Assembly: GCA_903905455.1 (NCBI GenBank)
Contig: CAIVGN010000192.1
Coordinates: 1-64,000, forward strand
Direction: 5' to 3'
Origin: an uncultured Archangium sp.
GTDB taxonomy: Bacteria > Myxococcota > Myxococcia > Myxococcales > Myxococcaceae
Length of the DNA stretch: 64,000 nucleotides
Both the position numbers and the translations under genes were made by a program. Positions 13,521 through 29,341 of this stretch are shown piece by piece. The first letter of the stretch is position 1; each line of letters starts with the position of its first letter. The notes beneath the pieces are model-generated. The model was given only the letters and a program-made list of their open reading frames with translations, ran no database searches and was not told the origin of the DNA.

Positions 13521-14297
13521 CTACGGGGCCGGCTGCGCCACGACGTTGCCGTCGAGGTTCACGGCGGTCTGGGCGAGCAGCCGGCCGTTGACCGACGCCC
13601 CGGTACCCAGGGTGATCGCCGTCTGCGAGAGGACGACACCTTCGAGGTGCGAGGTCGTGCCCAGCTCCACGCGACCTTCGACCTGCCAGAAGACGTTCTT
13701 CGGCAACGCCCCGCCCTGGAGCAGCACGCTCACCCCGTTGCGCACCGTCAGGTCCTGCGCGACCTGGAAGACCCACACGTCGCTCGCGCTGCCCCGCAGG
13801 GTCACGTTGGTCGGCACGAGCAGGCCGGTGCCCCACTTGTAGACGCCCGGGGTCAACGTCATGCCTCCGATGTTGCCCGCGCCCAGCTCGGTGACGCTCG
13901 GCGCCCGCCCGGCCGCGGCGGTGAACGCGAGCTCCATGTCCCCGACCGCGGTGGTCAGGCGCGCCGCGGTGGGCGGCGTGGAGTCGGCCGCGTAGAGCTT
14001 GCCGGTCACCTGGGTCGACGTGGCGAAGGTGTTGGTCGCGTCGGCCACCATCGAGAAGCCCGTGAGGAAGGTCGCGGCCGCGGGGCTGACGCCGACGTCG
14101 CCGGTCACCGCCGAAATGGGCACGGTCGACACCCCGCTCTTGGCCAGCACCACGAAGCTGCCCGCGACGCCGAGGGGGACCGCGCTCGTGGTGGGGTCGC
14201 CACCGTCGGCCAACTTGCCCGCGTCGAGTGTCTCCTCCACGGGGCGACAACCGACGAGGGCGACCAGACAGCTGACCCAGAGAAGGGATTGGTTCAT
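13521..14297 (-). CDS. DUF3494 (ice-binding-like) lipoprotein
   Basis: This 258-residue protein begins with a lipoprotein signal ending in LVALVGC (Cys17) and a short acidic linker. The DUF3494 beta-solenoid domain follows (about 42-258). The domain shows the family hallmarks VTGDVGVSP, NIGGMTLTPGVYKW, VFWQVEG, LGTTSHLEGVVLSQTAITLGTGASVNGRLLAQTAVNLDGN. DUF3494 proteins bind ice or act as surface adhesins; the role in myxobacteria is not known. The ATG must be the true start, because no other start precedes the lipobox. It sits 2 bases after the predicted sigma-54 start site, so the mRNA would be leaderless. One of four DUF3494 genes in this window. Confidence 0.88.
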   Translation of the reverse strand: MNQSLLWVSCLVALVGCRPVEETLDAGKLADGGDPTTSAVPLGVAGSFVVLAKSGVSTVPISAVTGDVGVSPAAATFLTGFSMVADATNTFATSTQVTGKLYAADSTPPTAARLTTAVGDMELAFTAAAGRAPSVTELGAGNIGGMTLTPGVYKWGTGLLVPTNVTLRGSASDVWVFQVAQDLTVRNGVSVLLQGGALPKNVFWQVEGRVELGTTSHLEGVVLSQTAITLGTGASVNGRLLAQTAVNLDGNVVAQPAP

Positions 14298-14309
14298 GCG
14301 GCCGCCCTG

Positions 14310-14325
14310 AGCACCATCGGTGCCA
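14310..14325 (-). promoter_or_regulatory. Sigma-54 promoter of the DUF3494 lipoprotein gene
   Basis: On the minus strand 14325-14310 reads TGGCACCGATGGTGCT: a perfect TGGCAC -24 element, GG-N10-GC spacing and GTGCT at -12. The predicted start is 14299, 2 bases before the ATG at 14297. The shared palindrome centred at 14406 lies 107 bp upstream. Confidence 0.7.
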
Positions 14326-14398
14326 CCAGCGGGGCCGACTCGTTGCCTGCGCTTACCTGTGTCAGCGAGCCGGCCTTCATCAGGAATGAAATCGACCT

Positions 14399-14413
14399 CC
14401 ATCACCTTGATGG
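14399..14413. promoter_or_regulatory. Enhancer (UAS) palindrome shared by two divergent sigma-54 promoters
   Basis: CCATCA-CCT-TGATGG is a perfect 6+6 inverted repeat with a 3-base centre. It lies between the divergent genes at 13521-14297 and 14495-15061. Its centre (14406) is 87 bp from the rightward and 107 bp from the leftward predicted start. Related palindromes lie at 23236, 26209 and 28244. Confidence 0.65.
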
Positions 14414-14466
14414 ACCGACGGGAGGACCGTGGCGGCAAGCCACCTCAATTGCTGGGGAGGTGCCGG

Positions 14467-14482
14467 TGGCCCGAATGGTGCT
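14467..14482 (+). promoter_or_regulatory. Sigma-54 promoter of the beta-barrel/kinase/cyclase operon
   Basis: TGGCCCGAATGGTGCT has GG-N10-GC spacing. The spacer bases CGAAT are shared with the promoters at 23184 and 26156. The predicted start is 14493, 2 bases before the first ATG (14495). Confidence 0.7.
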
Positions 14483-14494
14483 CAGTGACCGCGC

Positions 14495-15061
14495 ATGATG
14501 CCGTCAAACGAAACCAGGGCAGGCGCGGGGCGCACCACCTTCGGGCAGATCGCCAGGCGCTGTGCCGTCGCACTGGCCGCCGTCGCCGTCATGGGATCGA
14601 GCCCGGTGCAGGCCCACCCGGAGCGCCCCAACCTCCTGCTGCTCAACGTGGGGGATCTCCTCGGCGGCGTGGTGTCGGTCGAGTACGAGCGCGCGTTGGC
14701 CTCGTGGTTCGGGCTGACCGCGGGCGTCTCGGTGTGGACCTTTCGCGGCCTCTACACCCCGCTGGGTGAGCCGGCCTACACCGGCATCAGCCCCGAGCTG
14801 GGCGCCCGCTTTCACTTCATTCGCGACGCCCCGGGAGGGCTGTGGTTCGGCCCGACGCTGAGCGCGGGCTACCTCTTCTCGAGCTCCACGGGGACGTTGA
14901 ACCGGGTCTGGTCCTGGGGCGTGGGCGCCGCGGTCGGCTACAACTTCATCTTCGGCAGGCACTTCACCTTCCAGCTCGGCGTGGGTGGTGGCTTCACCGA
15001 CTACGGAGATCGCATCGTCTGGTCGCCCCGGCTCCGGCTGGGCCTGGGCGTGGCCTTTTGA
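14495..15061 (+). CDS. Outer-membrane beta-barrel protein
   Basis: The protein is 188 residues. An N-terminal signal peptide, RRCAVALAAVAVMGSSPVQA, starts near residue 20, so translation must begin upstream at ATG 14495 or 14498. The mature part has alternating strands with aromatic girdles (VSVEYERALASWFGL, LGARFHFI, GPTLSAGYLF, AVGYNFIFGRHFTFQLGVGGG) and ends in GLGVAF, with the C-terminal Phe typical of outer-membrane barrels inserted by BamA. It is probably an eight-stranded barrel, similar in style to DUF3575 or OmpW-like proteins. It is first in an operon with a hybrid kinase whose start overlaps its stop. Confidence 0.75.
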   Translation: MMPSNETRAGAGRTTFGQIARRCAVALAAVAVMGSSPVQAHPERPNLLLLNVGDLLGGVVSVEYERALASWFGLTAGVSVWTFRGLYTPLGEPAYTGISPELGARFHFIRDAPGGLWFGPTLSAGYLFSSSTGTLNRVWSWGVGAAVGYNFIFGRHFTFQLGVGGGFTDYGDRIVWSPRLRLGLGVAF

Positions 15062-17154
15062 GCTCGCCCCGGGAGACCACCGGCGAGCTCGCCGCCCGGG
15101 CCGCGGAAGGCCTGACCGAGACGCGCCGCCAGGAGGCGCTGCTCAAGACGGGCGCGCTGCAGAACGCCATCTTCAACAGCGCCAACTTCTCGTGCATCGC
15201 CACCGACGAGATGGGCGTCATCCAACTCTTCAACGTGGGCGCCGAGCGCATGCTCGGGTACACGGCGGCCGACGTCCTCAACAAGATCACCCCGGCGGCG
15301 ATCTCCGACTCGGGTGAGATCGTCGCCCGCGCCACCGCCCTGAGCCTCGAACTGAGCACCACCATTCGCCCCGGCTTCGAGGCGCTGGTGTTCAAGGCGT
15401 CGCGCGGCATCGAAGACATCTACGAGCTGACCTACATCCGCAAGGACGGGAGCCGCTTCCCCGCGGTGGTCTCGGTCACGGCGCTGCGCGACGACCAGGA
15501 CGCGATCATCGGGTACTTGTTGATCGGCACCGACAACTCGGCCCGGCGCCAGGTCGAGGCCGAGCAGAAGAAGCTCGACCAGCGGCTGCGCGACCACCAG
15601 TTCTACACGCGCTCGCTCATCGAATCGAACGTCGACGCGCTGATGACCACCGACTCGTCGAGCATCATCACCGACGTCAACAAGCAGATGGAGGCGCTCA
15701 CCGGCTGCACCCGCGACGAGCTGATCGGCGCGCCCTTCAAGAACTACTTCACGGACCCGGAGCGGGCCGCCGCGGGCATCAAGCTGGTGCTCGCCGAGAA
15801 GAAGATGACCGACTTCGAGCTCACGGCGCGGTCCCGCAGCGGCCGGGAGACCGTGGTCTCGCTCAACGCCACCACCTTCTACGACCGCGATCGCAAGCTG
15901 CAGGGCGTGTGCGCCGTGGCCCGCGACGTCACCGACCGCAACCGCCTCAACCAGGCCCTGCAGGACAAGAACGTCGAACTCGAGGCCGCCCGCCTGGTCG
16001 CCGAGAAGGCCAACCTCGCCAAGTCGGACTTCCTCTCGAGCATGAGCCACGAACTGCGCAGCCCGCTCAACGCCATCCTCGGCTTCGCGCAGTTGATGGA
16101 GTCGGACGCGACGCAAGCGCCCCAAAGCCAGAAGGAGAGCATCGCGCAGATCCTCCAGGCCGGCTGGCACCTGCTCAAGCTGATCAACGAGATCCTCGAC
16201 CTGGCGAAGGTCGAGTCCGGCCAGGTTCCCCTGTCGTCCGAGCCGGTGTCGCTGGCCGAGGTGCTCGAGGATTGCCACGGCATGATCGACCCGCAGGCCC
16301 AGCAGCGCGGGCTCACCATGAAGTTCCCGCGCTTCGAGACCGCGGTCTTCGTGCAGGCCGACCGCACGCGGCTCAAGCAGGTGCTGATCAACCTGCTGTC
16401 GAACGCGGTGAAGTACAACTTGAGGAATGGCACGGTGGAGGTCTCGTGCACCGAGGTCTCGCCCGAGCGGGTGCGCCTGAGCATCCGGGATACCGGGGTG
16501 GGGCTGCACCCCGAACAGCGGGCCCAGCTCTTCCAGGCCTTCAACCGCCTGGGCCAGGAAGCGGGCGGCGAAGAAGGCACCGGCATCGGACTCGTGGTGG
16601 CCAAGCGGCTGGTGGAGTTGATGCACGGCACCATCGGGGTCGAGAGCACCATCGACGAGGGGTCGACGTTCTGGTTCGAGCTGGTGAGGGTGCCTGAGCC
16701 CATGCTCGGGGCGCCCGACCGGCCGTCGCATGCCCTGCCCCACGCGGTCGCGCCCGGCGAACCCGGGCGTCACACGGTGCTCTACGTCGAGGACAACCCG
16801 GCAAACTTGAAGCTGGTGGAGCAGATCATCGCCCGCCACGGCCACGTCAGCCTCATCTCGGCCATCAACGGCGATCTCGGCGTGCAGCTCGCCCGGGCCG
16901 CGCTGCCCGACCTGATCTTGATGGACATCAACCTGCCGGGCATCAACGGCTTCGAGGCCCTGCGCCTGCTGCGCGCCGACCCTGCCACCGCGGGCATCCC
17001 CGTCGTCGCGGTGAGCGCCAACGCCATGCCCCTGGACGTCGAGCGGGGCCTGCGGGCCGGCTTCTTGCGCTACATCACCAAGCCCATTCGCGTCGCCGAG
17101 TTCATGGAGGCCGTGAACGTGGCCCTCGCCTCGGCCGGCGCGCGGAGCCCGTGA
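15058..17154 (+). CDS. Soluble PAS-PAS hybrid histidine kinase with receiver domain
   Basis: The protein is 698 residues from TTG 15058, which overlaps the preceding stop (TTGA); no ATG or GTG fits the N-terminus. Domains in order: PAS about 35-155 (NVGAERMLGY), PAS about 185-305 (NKQMEALTGC), HisKA with phospho-acceptor His331 in SMSHELRSPLNAILG, HATPase with N-box INLLSNAVKYN, G1 DTGVGL and G2 GTGIGL, then a receiver with Asp623 in LILMDINLPG. There is no membrane segment, so it senses an intracellular or co-factor-bound signal. It sits between an outer-membrane protein and a cyclase response regulator, all in one predicted sigma-54 operon. The phosphorelay partner is probably the downstream regulator. 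Confidence 0.92.
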   Translation: MSSPRETTGELAARAAEGLTETRRQEALLKTGALQNAIFNSANFSCIATDEMGVIQLFNVGAERMLGYTAADVLNKITPAAISDSGEIVARATALSLELSTTIRPGFEALVFKASRGIEDIYELTYIRKDGSRFPAVVSVTALRDDQDAIIGYLLIGTDNSARRQVEAEQKKLDQRLRDHQFYTRSLIESNVDALMTTDSSSIITDVNKQMEALTGCTRDELIGAPFKNYFTDPERAAAGIKLVLAEKKMTDFELTARSRSGRETVVSLNATTFYDRDRKLQGVCAVARDVTDRNRLNQALQDKNVELEAARLVAEKANLAKSDFLSSMSHELRSPLNAILGFAQLMESDATQAPQSQKESIAQILQAGWHLLKLINEILDLAKVESGQVPLSSEPVSLAEVLEDCHGMIDPQAQQRGLTMKFPRFETAVFVQADRTRLKQVLINLLSNAVKYNLRNGTVEVSCTEVSPERVRLSIRDTGVGLHPEQRAQLFQAFNRLGQEAGGEEGTGIGLVVAKRLVELMHGTIGVESTIDEGSTFWFELVRVPEPMLGAPDRPSHALPHAVAPGEPGRHTVLYVEDNPANLKLVEQIIARHGHVSLISAINGDLGVQLARAALPDLILMDINLPGINGFEALRLLRADPATAGIPVVAVSANAMPLDVERGLRAGFLRYITKPIRVAEFMEAVNVALASAGARSP

Positions 17155-18287
17155 TGATCAGCGAGCGTGACATCCTGGCGGCGAAGGTGCTCGTCGTCGA
17201 TGACTCGAAGGCCAACGTGCTGCTGCTCGAGCAGATCCTCCGCCGGCGCGGCTACAGCGACGTCACCTCGACCGTCGACCCCATGCAGGTCTGCGAGTTG
17301 CACCGCCACAACAGCTACGATCTGATCATCCTCGATCTCCAGATGCCGCTCATGGACGGGTTCGAGGTGATGGAGGGCCTCAAGGCCGTCGAGGCCGGCG
17401 GCTATCTCCCGGTGCTGGTGATCACCGCCGACCCGGCCCAGAAGGTGAAGGCGCTGCAGGCCGGCGCGCGCGACTTCCTGAGCAAGCCCCTCGAACTGGC
17501 CGAGGTGACCATCCGGGTGCGCAACATGATCGAGGTGCGGCTGCTCAACCAGGAGTCGAACCGGCACTGCGCGCAGATCGCCGCCGAACAGCGGGTCTCC
17601 GACCAACTGCTGCGCAACGTGTTGCCCCAGGCCATCGCGGAGCGCCTCAAGAACCGCTCGGCCGACAGCTTCACCGACCTCATCGCCGACAACTTCGACG
17701 ACGTGACGGTGCTCTTCGCAGACCTCGTGGGCTTCACCCGCTTCTCCGAGGGCGTGAGCCCGCGCGTGCTGGTCGACGTGCTCAACGACATCTTCACCCG
17801 CTTCGACGCCATCGCCGAGGAGCGGGGGCTCGAGAAGATCAAGACCATCGGCGACGCGTACATGGCCGTCGCCGGGCTGCCCATGCCCGTGGCGGATCAC
17901 GGGGAGCGCGCGGCGAACATGGCCCTCGACATGCTCGACGCCATCGCTCGCTACAACGTCGGCACCCAGCACCCGCTCATGCTGCGCATCGGCCTGAGCA
18001 CCGGCGCCGTCGTCGCCGGCGTCATCGGCCGGCGCAAGTTCCTCTACGACGTGTGGGGCGACACGGTGAACACCGCCAGCCGCATGGAATCGCACGGGGT
18101 CTCGGGCCGCATCCAGCTGACCGACGCCACGCGCGCGCAGCTCCCCGACCGGTTCACCCTCGAGGCGCGCGGAGCGATCGAGATCAAGGGCAAGGGCGAG
18201 ATGCACACCTGGTTCCTCAACGGCCGGCTCGAGGTCGCCCGGGGCGTCGCGCGGCTCGTCGAAACGACGGAGCACGCGTCGCTTTGA
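17154..18287 (+). CDS. Response regulator with class III adenylate cyclase output
   Basis: The protein is 377 residues. The start at 17154 is chosen because the paralogue at 28466 begins with the same MIS-x-x-DIL; a GTG lies 3 bases upstream. Residues 8-125 are a receiver (Asp61 in LIILDLQMP, Lys in LSKPLEL). Residues 180-345 are a class III nucleotidyl cyclase with both metal Asp (190 in FADLVGF, 234 in TIGDAYM), purine-selecting Lys230 and Asp303 (Lys/Asp pair indicates ATP), and transition-state Asn306 and Arg310 in TVNTASR. All catalytic residues are present, so phosphorylation-controlled cAMP synthesis is predicted. It overlaps the kinase stop and closes the operon. Confidence 0.92.
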   Translation: MISERDILAAKVLVVDDSKANVLLLEQILRRRGYSDVTSTVDPMQVCELHRHNSYDLIILDLQMPLMDGFEVMEGLKAVEAGGYLPVLVITADPAQKVKALQAGARDFLSKPLELAEVTIRVRNMIEVRLLNQESNRHCAQIAAEQRVSDQLLRNVLPQAIAERLKNRSADSFTDLIADNFDDVTVLFADLVGFTRFSEGVSPRVLVDVLNDIFTRFDAIAEERGLEKIKTIGDAYMAVAGLPMPVADHGERAANMALDMLDAIARYNVGTQHPLMLRIGLSTGAVVAGVIGRRKFLYDVWGDTVNTASRMESHGVSGRIQLTDATRAQLPDRFTLEARGAIEIKGKGEMHTWFLNGRLEVARGVARLVETTEHASL

Positions 18288-18346: not shown

Positions 18347-18362
18347 TGGCGCATGCGGTGCA
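18347..18362 (+). promoter_or_regulatory. Sigma-54 promoter of the DUF3494-vWD gene
   Basis: TGGCGCATGCGGTGCA keeps GG-N10-GC with good -24 and -12 elements. The predicted start is 18373, again 2 bases before the ATG (18375). The upstream palindrome here is weak: CGTC and GACG arms separated by 5 bases, centred at 18283 and overlapping the previous stop codon. Confidence 0.55.
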
Positions 18363-18374
18363 CCAGCGCCCCGA

Positions 18375-20390
18375 ATGACCAAGCAACGGGCGGCGCTGAA
18401 TGTCTCATCTGTGGCGATGACTGTCTGTCTTTCACTCTCGGGCGCTGCATGGGCCGCCACCGCGCCTTCACTGGGGCAGGCCGCCAGCTTCTCGGTGCTC
18501 GGCGGCTCCGACGTCAACAACACCGGGTCCTCGCGGCTCTACGGAGACCTGGGGGTGAGCCCCGGCTCGGTGATCTCCGGCTTTCCTCCGGGCCAGGTGA
18601 TCGGCGGCGGCACGCACACCGCCGACGCGGTGGCGGCGCAGGCCCGCGCGGACACCACCGCCGCGTACCTGCAGCTCGCTGGGCAGGTGGCGACGAGCGA
18701 CCTGTCGGGCATCGATCTCGCGGGCCTGACCCTCACCGCCGGCGTCTACCGCTACACCTCGGCGGCGCTGCTCTCGGGCACCCTGACGCTGGACGCGCAG
18801 GGCGACCCCAACGCCGTCTTCGTCTTTCAGACCGGGAGCACCCTCACCACCGCGAGCGGCTCGCGCGTGCAGGTGATCAACGCAGGCTCGAACTGCAACG
18901 TCTTCTGGCAGGTGGGGAGCTCCGCGACGCTGGGCACCACCACCACGTTCGTGGGCAACCTCCTCGCCTTGACCTCCATCACCCTGAGGACGGGCGCCAC
19001 GGTCTCGGGCCGCGTTCTCGTGCGAAACGGCTCGGCCACGCTCGACGCCAACGACGTCACGGCGTGCTCCGCGGTGTGCGGCGCGGTGACCGTCACCCCC
19101 GCGACGCTCGCCGCGGGCACGGCCGGCTCGTCCTACACCCAGGCCTTCACCGCCACCGGCGGCACGGGCCCCTGGGCCTGGTCCGTCACCGCCGGGGCGC
19201 TCCCCGCGGGCCTCACGCTCACGGCCGCTGGCGGACTGTCGGGCACGCCCACCCTCGCGGGCAGCTCGAGCTTCACGGTCACCGCCTCTGACGCCAACGC
19301 CTGCGCGGGCAGCCAGGGTCTGTCCCTGGTGATCAACCCCACCGGCGGCGCGGCCGGAGACCCCCACCTGCGCACGCTCGACGGCCTGGCCTACGAGTTC
19401 CAGGCCTGCGGCGACTTCGTGCTGCTGCGCGCGGGGCCGGCCGCCCTCGAAGTGCAGGTGCACCAGGAGCGCTGGCACGACACCCAGACGTCGGTGAACA
19501 CCGAGGTGGCCCTGCAGGTCAACGGTCACCGGGTGCAGCTCACGCCGTTCGCGGCCACCTGTGCTCCCAACGCCACCTCCACCACGGGCTGCGTCGAGGT
19601 CGACGGCCACGAGATCACCTTCAGCTGTGAGGGGACCGACCAGGCGCCCGGCTGCCTGCAGACGGCGACGCTGCCCAACGGGGGCCGCCTCGAACACCGC
19701 GTGGCCGGCCACAGCGGAGATCGGCACGCGAAGAAGCTGGCGACCCCCTGCGACCCGGCGCTCGAGCCTGCCTGCCGCCCGAGCGCCGCGCCCTGCGCGA
19801 CGAGCTTCACCCTGCAGCTGGGCACCGGGGAGCGGGTCGAGACCTGCGTGGGCGCCGGCTACCTGAACCTCGACGTCGAGGTGCCCTACGCCTCGCGCGG
19901 GCTCACCTCGGGCCTGCTGGGCGACGCCGACGGAGACCCGGCCAACGATCTGCAGGGCGCACGCGGAGAACGGCTCCCGCTGAACCTCGGCTTCGAGGAC
20001 TTCTACCTGCGCTTCGGCGAACACTGGCGCGTCGCGCCCCAGGCGTCGCTCTTTGCGCCCCGGGCGTCAGCCGACCGCTGCCCCAGCCGCCCCTTTCGCC
20101 TCGACGAGCTCTCGCCCCAGGTTCGCGACGCCTCGGCGCAGACGTGCCGCACGCTGGGCATCGGCGAAGCCAACCTCGAGGCCTGCACCATGGACGTGGC
20201 GCTGCTGGGTGACGCCGCGGCCTTCTCCTTCGTCGGCCTCGCCGCGCCCCGGGCGGTGGTGACGCTCACCGATCCCGCCGGCCCGGGCTGCGAGGGCTGT
20301 GGCGCCACCGGGAGCAGCCCGATGACGCTCGCGCTGATGCTGGCGGGCCTCGCCGTGTGGGCCCACCGCCGCCGTCACCCCGCGCCCTGA
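18375..20390 (+). CDS. Secreted DUF3494 protein with Ig-like and von Willebrand D domains, MYXO-CTERM
   Basis: The protein is 671 residues with a signal peptide ending near GAAWA (about 28). Domains: DUF3494 at about 32-235 (GDLGVSPGSVI, LTAGVYRY, NCNVFWQVGSSATLGTTTTFVGN), a putative-Ig/He_PIG domain at about 240-332 (ATGGTGPWAWSVTAGALPAGL), then a von Willebrand factor D-like domain starting GDPHLRTLDGLAYEFQACGDF (about 337) with many Cys. It ends with GCEGCGATGSS, a hydrophobic segment and RRR, a MYXO-CTERM-type sorting signal for rhombosortase-like processing. It is probably a cell-surface or matrix adhesin. It follows the cyclase gene by 87 bases with its own sigma-54 promoter. Confidence 0.88.
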   Translation: MTKQRAALNVSSVAMTVCLSLSGAAWAATAPSLGQAASFSVLGGSDVNNTGSSRLYGDLGVSPGSVISGFPPGQVIGGGTHTADAVAAQARADTTAAYLQLAGQVATSDLSGIDLAGLTLTAGVYRYTSAALLSGTLTLDAQGDPNAVFVFQTGSTLTTASGSRVQVINAGSNCNVFWQVGSSATLGTTTTFVGNLLALTSITLRTGATVSGRVLVRNGSATLDANDVTACSAVCGAVTVTPATLAAGTAGSSYTQAFTATGGTGPWAWSVTAGALPAGLTLTAAGGLSGTPTLAGSSSFTVTASDANACAGSQGLSLVINPTGGAAGDPHLRTLDGLAYEFQACGDFVLLRAGPAALEVQVHQERWHDTQTSVNTEVALQVNGHRVQLTPFAATCAPNATSTTGCVEVDGHEITFSCEGTDQAPGCLQTATLPNGGRLEHRVAGHSGDRHAKKLATPCDPALEPACRPSAAPCATSFTLQLGTGERVETCVGAGYLNLDVEVPYASRGLTSGLLGDADGDPANDLQGARGERLPLNLGFEDFYLRFGEHWRVAPQASLFAPRASADRCPSRPFRLDELSPQVRDASAQTCRTLGIGEANLEACTMDVALLGDAAAFSFVGLAAPRAVVTLTDPAGPGCEGCGATGSSPMTLALMLAGLAVWAHRRRHPAP

Positions 20391-23168: not shown

Positions 23169-23184
23169 AGCAGCATTCGGGCCA
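23169..23184 (-). promoter_or_regulatory. Sigma-54 promoter of the DUF3494 lipoprotein gene at 23088
   Basis: Minus strand 23184-23169 reads TGGCCCGAATGCTGCT, GG-N10-GC. The predicted start is 23158, giving a leader of about 70 bases. The palindrome centre at 23243 is 85 bp upstream. Confidence 0.72.
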
Positions 23185-23235: not shown

Positions 23236-23250
23236 CCATCATCTTGATGA
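23236..23250. promoter_or_regulatory. Enhancer palindrome of the 23184 promoter
   Basis: CATCA-TCT-TGATG (23237-23249) within CCATCATCTTGATGA is the same half-site as at 14399 and 28244. It is centred 85 bp upstream of the predicted start. Confidence 0.62.
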
Positions 23251-23348: not shown

Positions 23349-24914
23349 TTACGGGGTCGGCTTGACGATGGTGCTGGAGTCGAGGTTGACGGCGCCGATG
23401 CGCGCGAGCGCCCGACCATTGAGCGTCGCGCCGGTGTTCAGGGTGATGGCCTGGTCAGCCATGATCGTCCCCTGGAAGGCGGTGGTCGTCCCCAGGGTGG
23501 CCGCGGTGCCGACCTGCCAGAACACGTTGGCGGACTTGGCGCCGCCCGCGAGGATCACCTGGCGACCCGAGGTCGTGGTCAGCGTCGAGGCCATCTGGAA
23601 GATGAACACCGCGCTGCTGTCACCCTGGGCGTCGAGCGTGAGGTCGCCGGCGCTGATGGAGAGCGAACCGGTCGACTTGTAGAGGCCCGGAGCGAGCGTC
23701 TGCCCGCCGAGGTTGCCGGCCACCGAGACCGGGCACAGCGTGCGCCCAGCGGCGTCGTTGTAGGCGACGGTCAGGTCGAACTCGGCCGCGGCGGCCGTGG
23801 GGTCGGTCACGTGCTGCGTGCCCACCACGGTGCCCGGGGGGAAGCCGGTCACCGAAGAGCCCGGGCTCACGCCGAGGTCACCGGTCAACGAGGTCGGGCC
23901 GGTGTTGGTCACCGTCGAGCCAGCGAGGGCCACGAAGGCACCTGCCGCCCCGAGGACCACCGGCGCCTGGCCACAGGCCCCCGTGGTGAAGGTCCACACG
24001 TAGTTGCTGACCATGGGGTTGAGCGCCAGGTCGCGGGCCACGGTGGTGATGGTCGCGGTGTAGGTGCTGCTGACGTCGAGCGGGTTGGTGGGCTTGAAGC
24101 TCGCGGTGGCGAGCACCTGGTCGTAGGTCACCAGGCCGGCGATGGGGGTCAGCCCCTTGGCGAGCGTGAAGCTCGTCTGGCTGATGCTCAGCGCGTCCAT
24201 CGGCTCGCTGAAGGTGGCCGTCAGCGTCCTGAGAATCGAGACGTTCATCGCCAGGTTGAGCGGGCTGGTGAGGATGACCGTGGGAGGCGTCGAGTCGGGG
24301 ATGGTGCCCGTGGTGAAGCTCCACACGTAGGGCGTGGCGAGCGGGTTGCCCGCGAGGTCCGTGGCGCCCGTGCCGATGGTCGCCGTGTACGTGGTGCTGC
24401 CCATGAGGCTCGCCGGGGTGAAGGTGGCAGTGACCCCTGCGTAGCTCACGAGGCCGGAGATGGACGTGACGCCCTGCTTGAGGGTGAACGTCGTCATGTC
24501 CAGCGTGGAGACCTTCATCGCCTCGCTGAAGGTCGCGTTGACCGTCGTGCCCGCCGAGACGCCCATGGCCCCGGTGATGGGAATCGTGGAGATCACGGTC
24601 GGCGCGGTGCGATCACCCGCGTCGGGAATGCCGGAGTCAGGAATGCCGGAGTCAGGAATGCCGGAGTCAGGAATGCCGGAGTCGGGAATGCCGGAGTCGG
24701 GAATGCCGGAGTCGGGAATGCCGGAGTCGATGATGCCGGAGTCGATGACCCCCGAGTCGCGGTAGCCGGCGTCACTGACGACGCTACCCGCGTCGGGAAG
24801 ACCGCCGTCTCCACCAATTGCGCCCGAGTCGATCTCGAACTCCACCAATTGCTGTCCACAGGCAGAGATGAAGACCAGCGAGAAGAGCAGCACTGCGTTG
24901 AAATGGGTCTTCAT
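23349..24914 (-). CDS. Lipoprotein with two Ig-like domains and a DUF3494 domain
   Basis: The protein is 521 residues. The lipoprotein signal ends VFISAC (Cys19). A linker of PDSGI 5-residue repeats (about 50-100) leads to two SbsA-type Ig-like domains (about 105-310) and a DUF3494 solenoid (about 312-521) with LTGDLGVSPGSSV, NLGGQTLAPGLYKS, VFWQVGTAATLGTTTAFQG and LNGRALARIGAVNLDSST. Its ATG lies 3 bases after the stop of the OmpA-type gene, so it is the second gene of that operon. It is a paralogue of 21670-23088. Probable role: a surface-displayed adhesin-like protein linked to a peptidoglycan-binding OmpA partner. Confidence 0.87.
   Translation of the reverse strand: MKTHFNAVLLFSLVFISACGQQLVEFEIDSGAIGGDGGLPDAGSVVSDAGYRDSGVIDSGIIDSGIPDSGIPDSGIPDSGIPDSGIPDSGIPDSGIPDAGDRTAPTVISTIPITGAMGVSAGTTVNATFSEAMKVSTLDMTTFTLKQGVTSISGLVSYAGVTATFTPASLMGSTTYTATIGTGATDLAGNPLATPYVWSFTTGTIPDSTPPTVILTSPLNLAMNVSILRTLTATFSEPMDALSISQTSFTLAKGLTPIAGLVTYDQVLATASFKPTNPLDVSSTYTATITTVARDLALNPMVSNYVWTFTTGACGQAPVVLGAAGAFVALAGSTVTNTGPTSLTGDLGVSPGSSVTGFPPGTVVGTQHVTDPTAAAAEFDLTVAYNDAAGRTLCPVSVAGNLGGQTLAPGLYKSTGSLSISAGDLTLDAQGDSSAVFIFQMASTLTTTSGRQVILAGGAKSANVFWQVGTAATLGTTTAFQGTIMADQAITLNTGATLNGRALARIGAVNLDSSTIVKPTP
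24620..24765 (-). repeat. 15-bp coding tandem repeat (PDSGI linker)
   Basis: At least eight near-identical 15-base units encode six IPDSG units, flanked by IPDAG and IIDSG/VIDSG variants. Third-position differences are few (GTCA or GTCG on the + strand), so expansion or contraction by slippage would keep the frame and only change the spacer length between lipid anchor and Ig-like domains. Confidence 0.85.
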
Positions 24915-26140: not shown

Positions 26141-26156
26141 AGCAGCATTCGAGCCA
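26141..26156 (-). promoter_or_regulatory. Sigma-54 promoter of the OmpA-DUF3494 operon
   Basis: Minus strand 26156-26141 reads TGGCTCGAATGCTGCT, GG-N10-GC and one base different from the 23184 promoter. The predicted start is 26130, with a leader of about 46 bases to the ATG at 26084. A palindrome is centred 86 bp upstream at 26216. Confidence 0.72.
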
Positions 26157-26208: not shown

Positions 26209-26223
26209 CCTTCAGTTTGAAGG
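26209..26223. promoter_or_regulatory. Enhancer palindrome variant of the 26156 promoter
   Basis: CCTTCA-GTT-TGAAGG is a perfect 6+6 inverted repeat with a 3-base centre. It differs from the CCATCA/TGATGG type by the same symmetrical change in both arms. The centre at 26216 is 86 bp from the predicted start. Confidence 0.58.
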
Positions 26224-28163: not shown

Positions 28164-28179
28164 AGCAGGCGCCGCGCCA
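28164..28179 (-). promoter_or_regulatory. Sigma-54 promoter of the CsbD-DUF4398-OmpA operon
   Basis: Minus strand 28179-28164 reads TGGCGCGGCGCCTGCT with GG-N10-GC spacing. The predicted start is 28153, with a 40-base leader to ATG 28113. The palindrome centre at 28251 is 98 bp upstream, one helical turn further than in most other copies. Confidence 0.62.
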
Positions 28180-28243: not shown

Positions 28244-28258
28244 CCATCAACTTGATGC
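28244..28258. promoter_or_regulatory. Enhancer palindrome upstream of the CsbD operon
   Basis: CATCA-ACT-TGATG (28245-28257) is a perfect 5+5 repeat within GTCCATCAACTTGATG. The first bases TCCATCA are identical to those at 14398 and 23235. Confidence 0.62.
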
Positions 28259-28465: not shown

Positions 28466-29341
28466 ATGATCAGCGCCACGGACATTCTCCGCGGCAAGAT
28501 CCTCATCGTCGACGACCAGGACACCAACGTGCGGCTGCTCGAGCGCGTGCTGCGCGGCGCGGGCTACCTCTCGGTGGACTCCACGACCGACTCCAGCAAG
28601 GTCAGCGAGCTCCACCTCGTCAACCGCTACGACCTGATCCTCCTCGACCTGCACATGCCGGGCATGGACGGTTTCCAGGTGATGGAGAACCTCAAGCAGA
28701 TCGAGACCGAGGGCTACCTGCCGGTGCTCGTGGTCACCGCGCAGAGCGAGCACAAGGTGCGCGCGCTCAAGGCCGGCGCGCGAGACTTCGTGAGCAAGCC
28801 CTTCGATCTCGCCGAGGTGCTGGCGCGGGTGCACAACATGGTCGAGGTGCGCCTGCTGCACCGCGAGGCGAAGCTGCTCCACGGCCGCGTGCTCGCCGAG
28901 CACCGCCTCTCGGAGCGCCTGGTCACCGAGGTGCCCGTCGCCATCGGCGAGCACTTCAAGGCGAACCCCGAGGGCGCGACCCCGCAAGGCGTCGGCCGCA
29001 TCAACGAGGGCACCGCCGAGTTCATGGTGCTCTTCGCCGACGTGCTGGAGTTCACCCGCTACGCGGAGGGCGCGAGCGGCGCGGTGCTCCAGGGCGTGCT
29101 CACCGCCATCTCGTCGCGCTTCGACGCGAACCCCGAGCGCGGCGCCTTCAAGCGGACCACGGCCGTCAGCGACGCCTACCTCGCCGCGGTGGGCCTGCCC
29201 GAGCCCGTGGCGATTCACTCGATTCGTGCGGCCAACAAGGCCCTCGACCTGGGCGAGGCGATGGACCGCTTCAATGGCCACAGCCTGTGCAAGCTGAAGC
29301 TGCGCCTGGTGCTCGACGCTGCGCCCGCCGTCGTGGTGTAG
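28466..29341 (+). CDS. Response regulator with truncated, probably inactive cyclase domain
   Basis: The protein is 291 residues and paralogous to the regulator at 17154 over its whole length (MIS-x-x-DIL start, receiver with Asp61 in LILLDLHMPG, same linker). The cyclase domain begins normally and keeps both metal Asp (192 in LFADVLEFT, 236 in SDAYLAA). The purine-selecting Lys is replaced by Thr232, and the chain stops at a TAG just where the paralogue continues into the VWGD-TVN-AS-R block, so the second substrate residue and the Asn/Arg pair are absent. Catalysis is therefore unlikely. It may be a phosphorylation-controlled dimerisation partner or decoy of the intact regulator, or a decaying copy. 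Confidence 0.85.
   Translation: MISATDILRGKILIVDDQDTNVRLLERVLRGAGYLSVDSTTDSSKVSELHLVNRYDLILLDLHMPGMDGFQVMENLKQIETEGYLPVLVVTAQSEHKVRALKAGARDFVSKPFDLAEVLARVHNMVEVRLLHREAKLLHGRVLAEHRLSERLVTEVPVAIGEHFKANPEGATPQGVGRINEGTAEFMVLFADVLEFTRYAEGASGAVLQGVLTAISSRFDANPERGAFKRTTAVSDAYLAAVGLPEPVAIHSIRAANKALDLGEAMDRFNGHSLCKLKLRLVLDAAPAVVV

Follow-up and report, generated by a model that had tools for sequence, protein, structure and literature searches.

Divergent sigma-54-dependent units that answer to one activator have an established example in enterobacteria, where a ZraR site is shared between zraP and zraSR. In this case zraP is placed on one side and zraSR (hydHG) on the other, with ZraR acting as activator of both units (PMC8743547, PMC3844500). 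The region considered here is a 197-bp gap at positions 14298-14494 of a 64,000-nucleotide stretch of DNA from an uncultured Archangium sp. (the whole stretch is referred to as the window), and it contains two -24/-12 (sigma-54) elements that face outward and enclose a perfect 6-3-6 palindrome. As in zraP/zraSR, two divergent sigma-54 units would be controlled by one enhancer-binding protein, with a small envelope protein encoded in one direction and signalling proteins in the other. Unlike in zraP/zraSR, the candidate activator is of the XylR_N-V4R type and encoded elsewhere, the targets are PF11999, barrel and cyclase genes, and on either side the start codon adjoins the -12 element. The candidate resembles XylR/DmpR-type activators in its domain order, XylR_N-V4R-AAA+-Fis HTH, and in the paired palindromic upstream sites, but its links are to ice-binding-like proteins and to stress genes, not to aromatic catabolism, and both its presumptive site, CCWTCRANTYGAWGG, and the pair spacing of 21-23 bp are different.

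Leaderless mRNAs occur in many bacteria. According to one report no specific promoters for leaderless genes have been described (PMC4842269), and a study on Deinococcus-Thermus presents promoter boxes abutting ORFs that give leaderless mRNAs (PMC12340547). The gap is similar to that case insofar as the start codon comes immediately after a promoter core element, and dissimilar insofar as the box is a sigma-54 -12 box here and a -10 box there (PMC12340547). Neither the regulation of PF11999/DUF3494 proteins in myxobacteria nor a leaderless sigma-54 class was reported in the literature searched, which lay mostly outside subscription journals, so that this absence is weak evidence on both points. 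A shared enhancer between divergent sigma-54 promoters is a known kind of arrangement; the regulon and the leaderless class are apparently undescribed. As far as the sequence goes, the control region in the gap is real and conserved; its shared-enhancer layout is of a general kind already known, and the placement of its start codons is unusual.

The two promoters and the genes they face

The leftward element TGGCACCGATGGTGCT occupies positions 14310-14325 on the minus strand and the rightward element TGGCCCGAATGGTGCT positions 14467-14482 on the plus strand. Both have the exact TGGC-N8-TGCW geometry, and elements orthologous to both are found at corresponding places in relatives (loci L114 and L122). 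Taking +1 as 12 nt past the C of the -12 box, transcription is predicted to start at 14299 leftward and at 14493 rightward. Sigma-54 itself is encoded in the genome by one PF04552 protein (rpoN, E 5.9e-64). The window has 17 matches to the pattern TGGCN8TGCW versus 5.6 expected, a count that was reached by none of 100 shuffles. Terminators were looked for and none were found, nor was there an Rfam match that would indicate an RNA element.

On the left side the gap is bordered by a lipoprotein gene (13521-14297, minus strand) with a MNQSLLWVSCLVALVGC signal, the start of which is set by orthologs. Its product matches PF11999 (DUF3494) with E 1.7e-71 over positions 1-207 of 208, and is ice-binding-like by sequence. 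On the right side the first gene of an operon (14495-15061, plus strand) encodes a protein without Pfam match, for which an OmpW/OmpA-like 8-strand beta-barrel is predicted: the AlphaFold model (pLDDT 66) has 8 long strands, and its best PDB match is OmpW (E 2.7e-5). By profile matches, the operon continues with a PAS-PAS-HisKA-HATPase-receiver hybrid kinase (ORF 14842-17154, plus strand, the true start lying past about 15061) and a receiver plus Guanylate_cyc (nucleotide cyclase) protein (17151-18287, plus strand), the start of which overlaps the kinase stop. A paralog of the receiver-cyclase is encoded at 28466-29341 (plus strand), with a short cyclase domain match (positions 8-104 of 183). 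In bins labelled Treponema and Rhodoferax (L147, L148) a PF11999 gene adjoins genes for a PAS kinase and a receiver-cyclase, reflecting gene transfer or mis-binning.

The arrangement is conserved. In two genomes of the same genus (G003 and G005) the ortholog of the lipoprotein gene faces away from a barrel/PAS-kinase operon and both outward elements are kept. In these relatives the right-hand side begins with a gene for a hydrophobic protein of 70-72 aa without Pfam match, placed ahead of the barrel gene (L114, 6512, plus strand; L122, minus strand); the window is without this gene, and its barrel protein has an extended N-terminus. The more distant myxobacterial bins L139, L140, L142 and L144 have the same layout, and in L144 two outward promoters with common sites are found again.

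Predicted enhancer palindromes, helical phasing and the wider set of promoters

The intact palindrome CCATCACCTTGATGG, the predicted enhancer, lies at 14399-14413. It has arms of 6 bp, or 7 bp counting the flanking T/A pair, and a loop of 3, and its centre at 14406 is 61 bp from the right and 81 bp from the left -24 box. An earlier note on this DNA had described a leftward and a rightward -24/-12 element around a single palindrome at 107 and 87 bp from the two starts. Sequence, geometry and joint statistics agree with these contents, and the distances are recovered when the centre at 14406 is set against the predicted +1 at 14299 and 14493. The palindrome is single only in the sense that one site is intact, since homology with two relatives reveals a second, decayed enhancer site TCATCAGGAATGAAA at 14377-14391. 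The decayed site retains the left half of what, in the alignment with G003 and G005, is a fuller palindrome; its centre at 14384 is 22 bp away from 14406, 83 bp from the right and 59 bp from the left -24 box. A register at 14374-14388, 25 bp from the main site, was dropped for the present one after this alignment. G003 and G005 have two palindromes each, 22 bp apart; three of the four promoters in these genomes have them at distances of 61-62 and 83-84 bp, the fourth at 50 and 72 bp. Judged by the comparison with these relatives, the lone palindrome is a local decay of an ancestral pair.

The symmetrised consensus of the sites is CCWTCRANTYGAWGG, in which TC and GA are invariant. A TGGCN8TGCW element together with a palindrome that matches at least 11 of 12 positions and is centred 48-95 bp upstream is found five times in the window, as compared to 0.003 expected (300 order-2 Markov resamplings, maximum 1), and the joint motif with spacers of 6, 7, 9 or 10 does not occur in the window. 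In 36 curated promoters the distances between palindrome and -24 box cluster near 50, 61, 72, 83 and 93 bp, which corresponds to helical-turn steps, with a vector strength of 0.765 at 10.75 bp that was equalled by none of 2000 random sets, the phasing counts being not fully independent as the promoters include orthologs. Paired sites in this set are mostly 21-23 bp apart. In sigma-54 systems helical phasing is a requirement for an enhancer-binding protein that acts via DNA looping. The sites in the gap lie 59-61 and 81-83 bp from the -24 boxes, at phased and conserved distances, and palindrome-promoter distances in steps of one helical turn fit what an enhancer would show.

Two of the five joint matches in the window are the gap promoters, and the other three, at 23184, 26156 and 28179, are on the minus strand. 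The element TGGCCCGAATGCTGCT (23169-23184), with the putative enhancer palindrome TCATCAAGATGATGG on the minus strand (23236-23250) 59 bp upstream, would be the promoter of a PF11999+Big_5 gene (ATG 23097). The element TGGCTCGAATGCTGCT (26141-26156), with the palindrome CCTTCAAACTGAAGG (minus strand, 26209-26223) 60 bp upstream, stands before an OmpA-family gene (ATG 26084), which is followed by a PF11999 gene (23349-24914). The third element TGGCGCGGCGCCTGCT (28164-28179), with the palindrome GCATCAAGTTGATGG on the minus strand (28244-28258) 72 bp upstream, is found before a CsbD-like ORF (28113-27871), the CsbD match of which (E 3.4e-5) is under the Pfam cut-off. In addition, a candidate element TGGCGCATGCGGTGCA (18347-18362, plus strand) precedes a PF11999+He_PIG+VWD gene (18375-20390) with the ATG (18375) 12 nt downstream; no good palindrome was found near this element, and in its ortholog promoter (L118) the ATG follows at 12 nt, with a palindrome present at 61. 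At 24490-24800 (minus strand) a PF11999 protein has tandem repeats of the PDSGI type, which separate its lipobox from its Big_5 domains.

Pattern searches underlie the genome-wide counts. Exact TGGCNCGAATGSTGCT has only four copies in the 8.6-Mb genome, three of them in the window cluster; the fourth stands before the gene of a Ser/Thr kinase that lies some 3 kb upstream of a further PF11999 gene. Promoters with palindromes are also found before a barrel paralog on contig C8, at a ferritin/PAS-kinase locus on C101 and, on C46, ahead of a glucose/sorbosone-dehydrogenase-like gene. A scan with TGATGG N30-60 YGGCN8TGCT gave matches that were mostly coding-looking.

The earlier note had further proposed that one shared site couples the lipoprotein to the operon. 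The conservation of the promoter pair, the palindromes and the distances in two genomes, and the recurrence of the arrangement at PF11999 loci, argue for this part of the proposal, and these comparisons give good support to one enhancer region that serves both promoters and ties the lipoprotein to the barrel/kinase/cyclase operon. The proposal has to be amended in two respects, as the enhancer would ancestrally have consisted of two sites and the regulon appears to be a wider set of ice-binding-like and envelope proteins, of which the gap pair is one piece without a private link.

The candidate activator and competing explanations

Which protein could act on these sites? An activator gene was looked for in the window cluster, and no PF00158 match was found on contig C192. 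In relatives the gene of a XylR_N-V4R-Sigma54_activat-HTH_8 protein adjoins a PF11999 gene (G003, G004, G005, L138 and L144; partial in G018). The full-length ortholog in the Archangium sp. genome is encoded on contig C8 (XylR_N E 4e-25, V4R 8e-9, Sigma54_activat 7.1e-70, HTH_8 3.7e-14), 2.4 kb from the barrel paralog, which has a -24/-12 element of the same kind with palindromes at 60 and 81 bp. Except at one residue, the putative recognition helix of the C8 protein agrees with that of the three orthologs from the same genus; it is nearly identical in L144, and in a paralog on contig C178 it is different. PF11999 is present in 5 of the 6 genomes with a close ortholog of this activator (identity of at least 66%) versus 8 of 53 others (Fisher p 0.0014; 60 relatives); G056 has a close ortholog, yet no PF11999 gene. 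Because its orthologs adjoin PF11999 genes in relatives and it is encoded near a promoter-bearing barrel paralog, has a conserved helix and co-occurs with PF11999, the C8 protein is the best candidate for the activator of both promoters. For PF11999 proteins in myxobacteria, a regulator, a binding site and a regulon can thereby be named as concrete candidates. The second XylR_N-V4R activator, on C178 (L218, L022), is encoded divergently from a pirin-like gene, at which TGGCACGTGGGATGCT is found with an ATG 13 nt downstream; a matching palindrome was not seen at this gene.

In the favoured model, sigma-54 RNA polymerase would sit closed at both -24/-12 elements, and an AAA+ enhancer-binding protein would occupy the palindrome or palindromes midway, on the same face of the helix relative to each promoter. 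From there the bound activator would loop to either promoter and bring about its opening, whereby the PF11999 lipoprotein gene and the barrel/PAS-kinase/receiver-cyclase operon would answer one signal. The C8 protein would most likely be this activator, probably under control of a small ligand, and the messages would begin at the start codon or no more than about 3 nt from it, and would be translated as leaderless or nearly leaderless mRNAs. The left promoter may respond weakly, because its nearest site is decayed and the intact one is 81 bp away. Taken as a whole, this model of a two-way sigma-54 region with a shared enhancer, the C8 activator, near-leaderless messages and an ice-binding-like/envelope regulon is in our judgement likely to be correct.

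Alternatively, the same architecture could be served by a different activator, for example the FHA-domain protein encoded on contig C10 or a response regulator that receives its phosphate from the PAS kinase of the operon. The genome encodes about 50 Sigma54_activat proteins, the gene of the candidate is located outside the window cluster, and the gene of the FHA-domain enhancer-binding protein (L048, 344-3738) is found directly downstream of another PF11999 gene. However, this PF11999 gene is without matching promoter and palindrome, for which reason the FHA-type protein was rejected, and it is the XylR_N-V4R protein that is the repeated neighbour of PF11999 genes in relatives; a different activator is rather unlikely, and the C8 protein is preferred. 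The palindrome might also serve one direction only, the other sigma-54 promoter being driven independently or silent. The decay of the second site in the window and the unequal distances (61 bp to the right, 81 bp to the left) would fit such a division, but distances of 61 and of 81-84 bp are both found at further promoters of the set, and G003 and G005 keep both outward elements with common sites, which renders control of one side improbable in comparison with shared control.

The protein that binds a short perfect palindrome cannot be told from the palindrome itself, and an unrelated repressor or activator might have its operator here, between the promoters by chance. Helical phasing and paired spacing are typical of looping activators, and this palindrome recurs only within the promoter-palindrome module, helically phased and with pairs 21-23 bp apart, so that we give an unrelated operator very little credence. 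Finally, single -24/-12 matches are not rare in the GC-rich DNA of the window (5.6 expected per window), but that the elements are chance matches and transcription begins elsewhere is hardly conceivable given the joint-motif statistics, the conservation in relatives and a search that found no sigma-70-like site, the latter being a weak test for this organism.

Start codons abutting the -12 element

In both directions an ATG (14297-14295 leftward, 14495-14497 rightward) is found 12 nt past the -12 TGCT, and the predicted +1 is thus 2 nt before the ATG. That both start codons lie about 2 nt past the predicted +1 was absent from the earlier note. The 12-nt spacing and the position of the predicted +1 relative to the ATG are kept in orthologs, and the left start codon is set independently by the signal peptide of the lipoprotein and by ortholog alignment; the predicted +1 may be off by 1-2 nt, which bears on leaders as short as these. 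In both elements ATGGTGCTCAG opens a 7-codon ORF overlapping the start codon (MVLRAAA-stop and MVLSDRA-stop). A reading of these mini-ORFs as leader peptides was rejected, since they are located 5' of the predicted +1, and some promoters of the regulon lack the spacer ATG.

In the curated set the spacing between -12 box and ATG is bimodal, with either 11-15 nt or at least 32 nt. When TGGCNCN6TGCT followed by an ATG was searched for, a peak was found at 12-13 nt, comprising 21 of 77 matches in this genome (G000) and 27 of 76 in G003; with a spacer one base longer there were 14 matches versus 77. In most of the 12-15 nt cases fetched, the ATG begins a reading frame that has coding-type GC3 and often encodes a signal peptide; the matches at other distances are mostly inside genes. 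In the order-level relative G045 no excess over the backward control was found. The ATG spacing leads us to propose a class of sigma-54 genes whose messages would have almost no leader. The chances appear about even that the Myxococcaceae have a genome-wide sigma-54 class in which the -12 box abuts the start codon and leaderless mRNAs result, the gap being a two-sided example with one XylR-type activator and an ice-binding-like regulon. If the starts are mapped accordingly, the combination of sigma-54 with near-leaderless starts would tie a tightly off/on class of promoters to a distinct mode of translation initiation. Another outward-facing -24/-12 pair with common palindromes of the same type is found in G003 (L085/L115, contig C36), where the start codons are 12 and 14 nt downstream, ahead of short ORFs.
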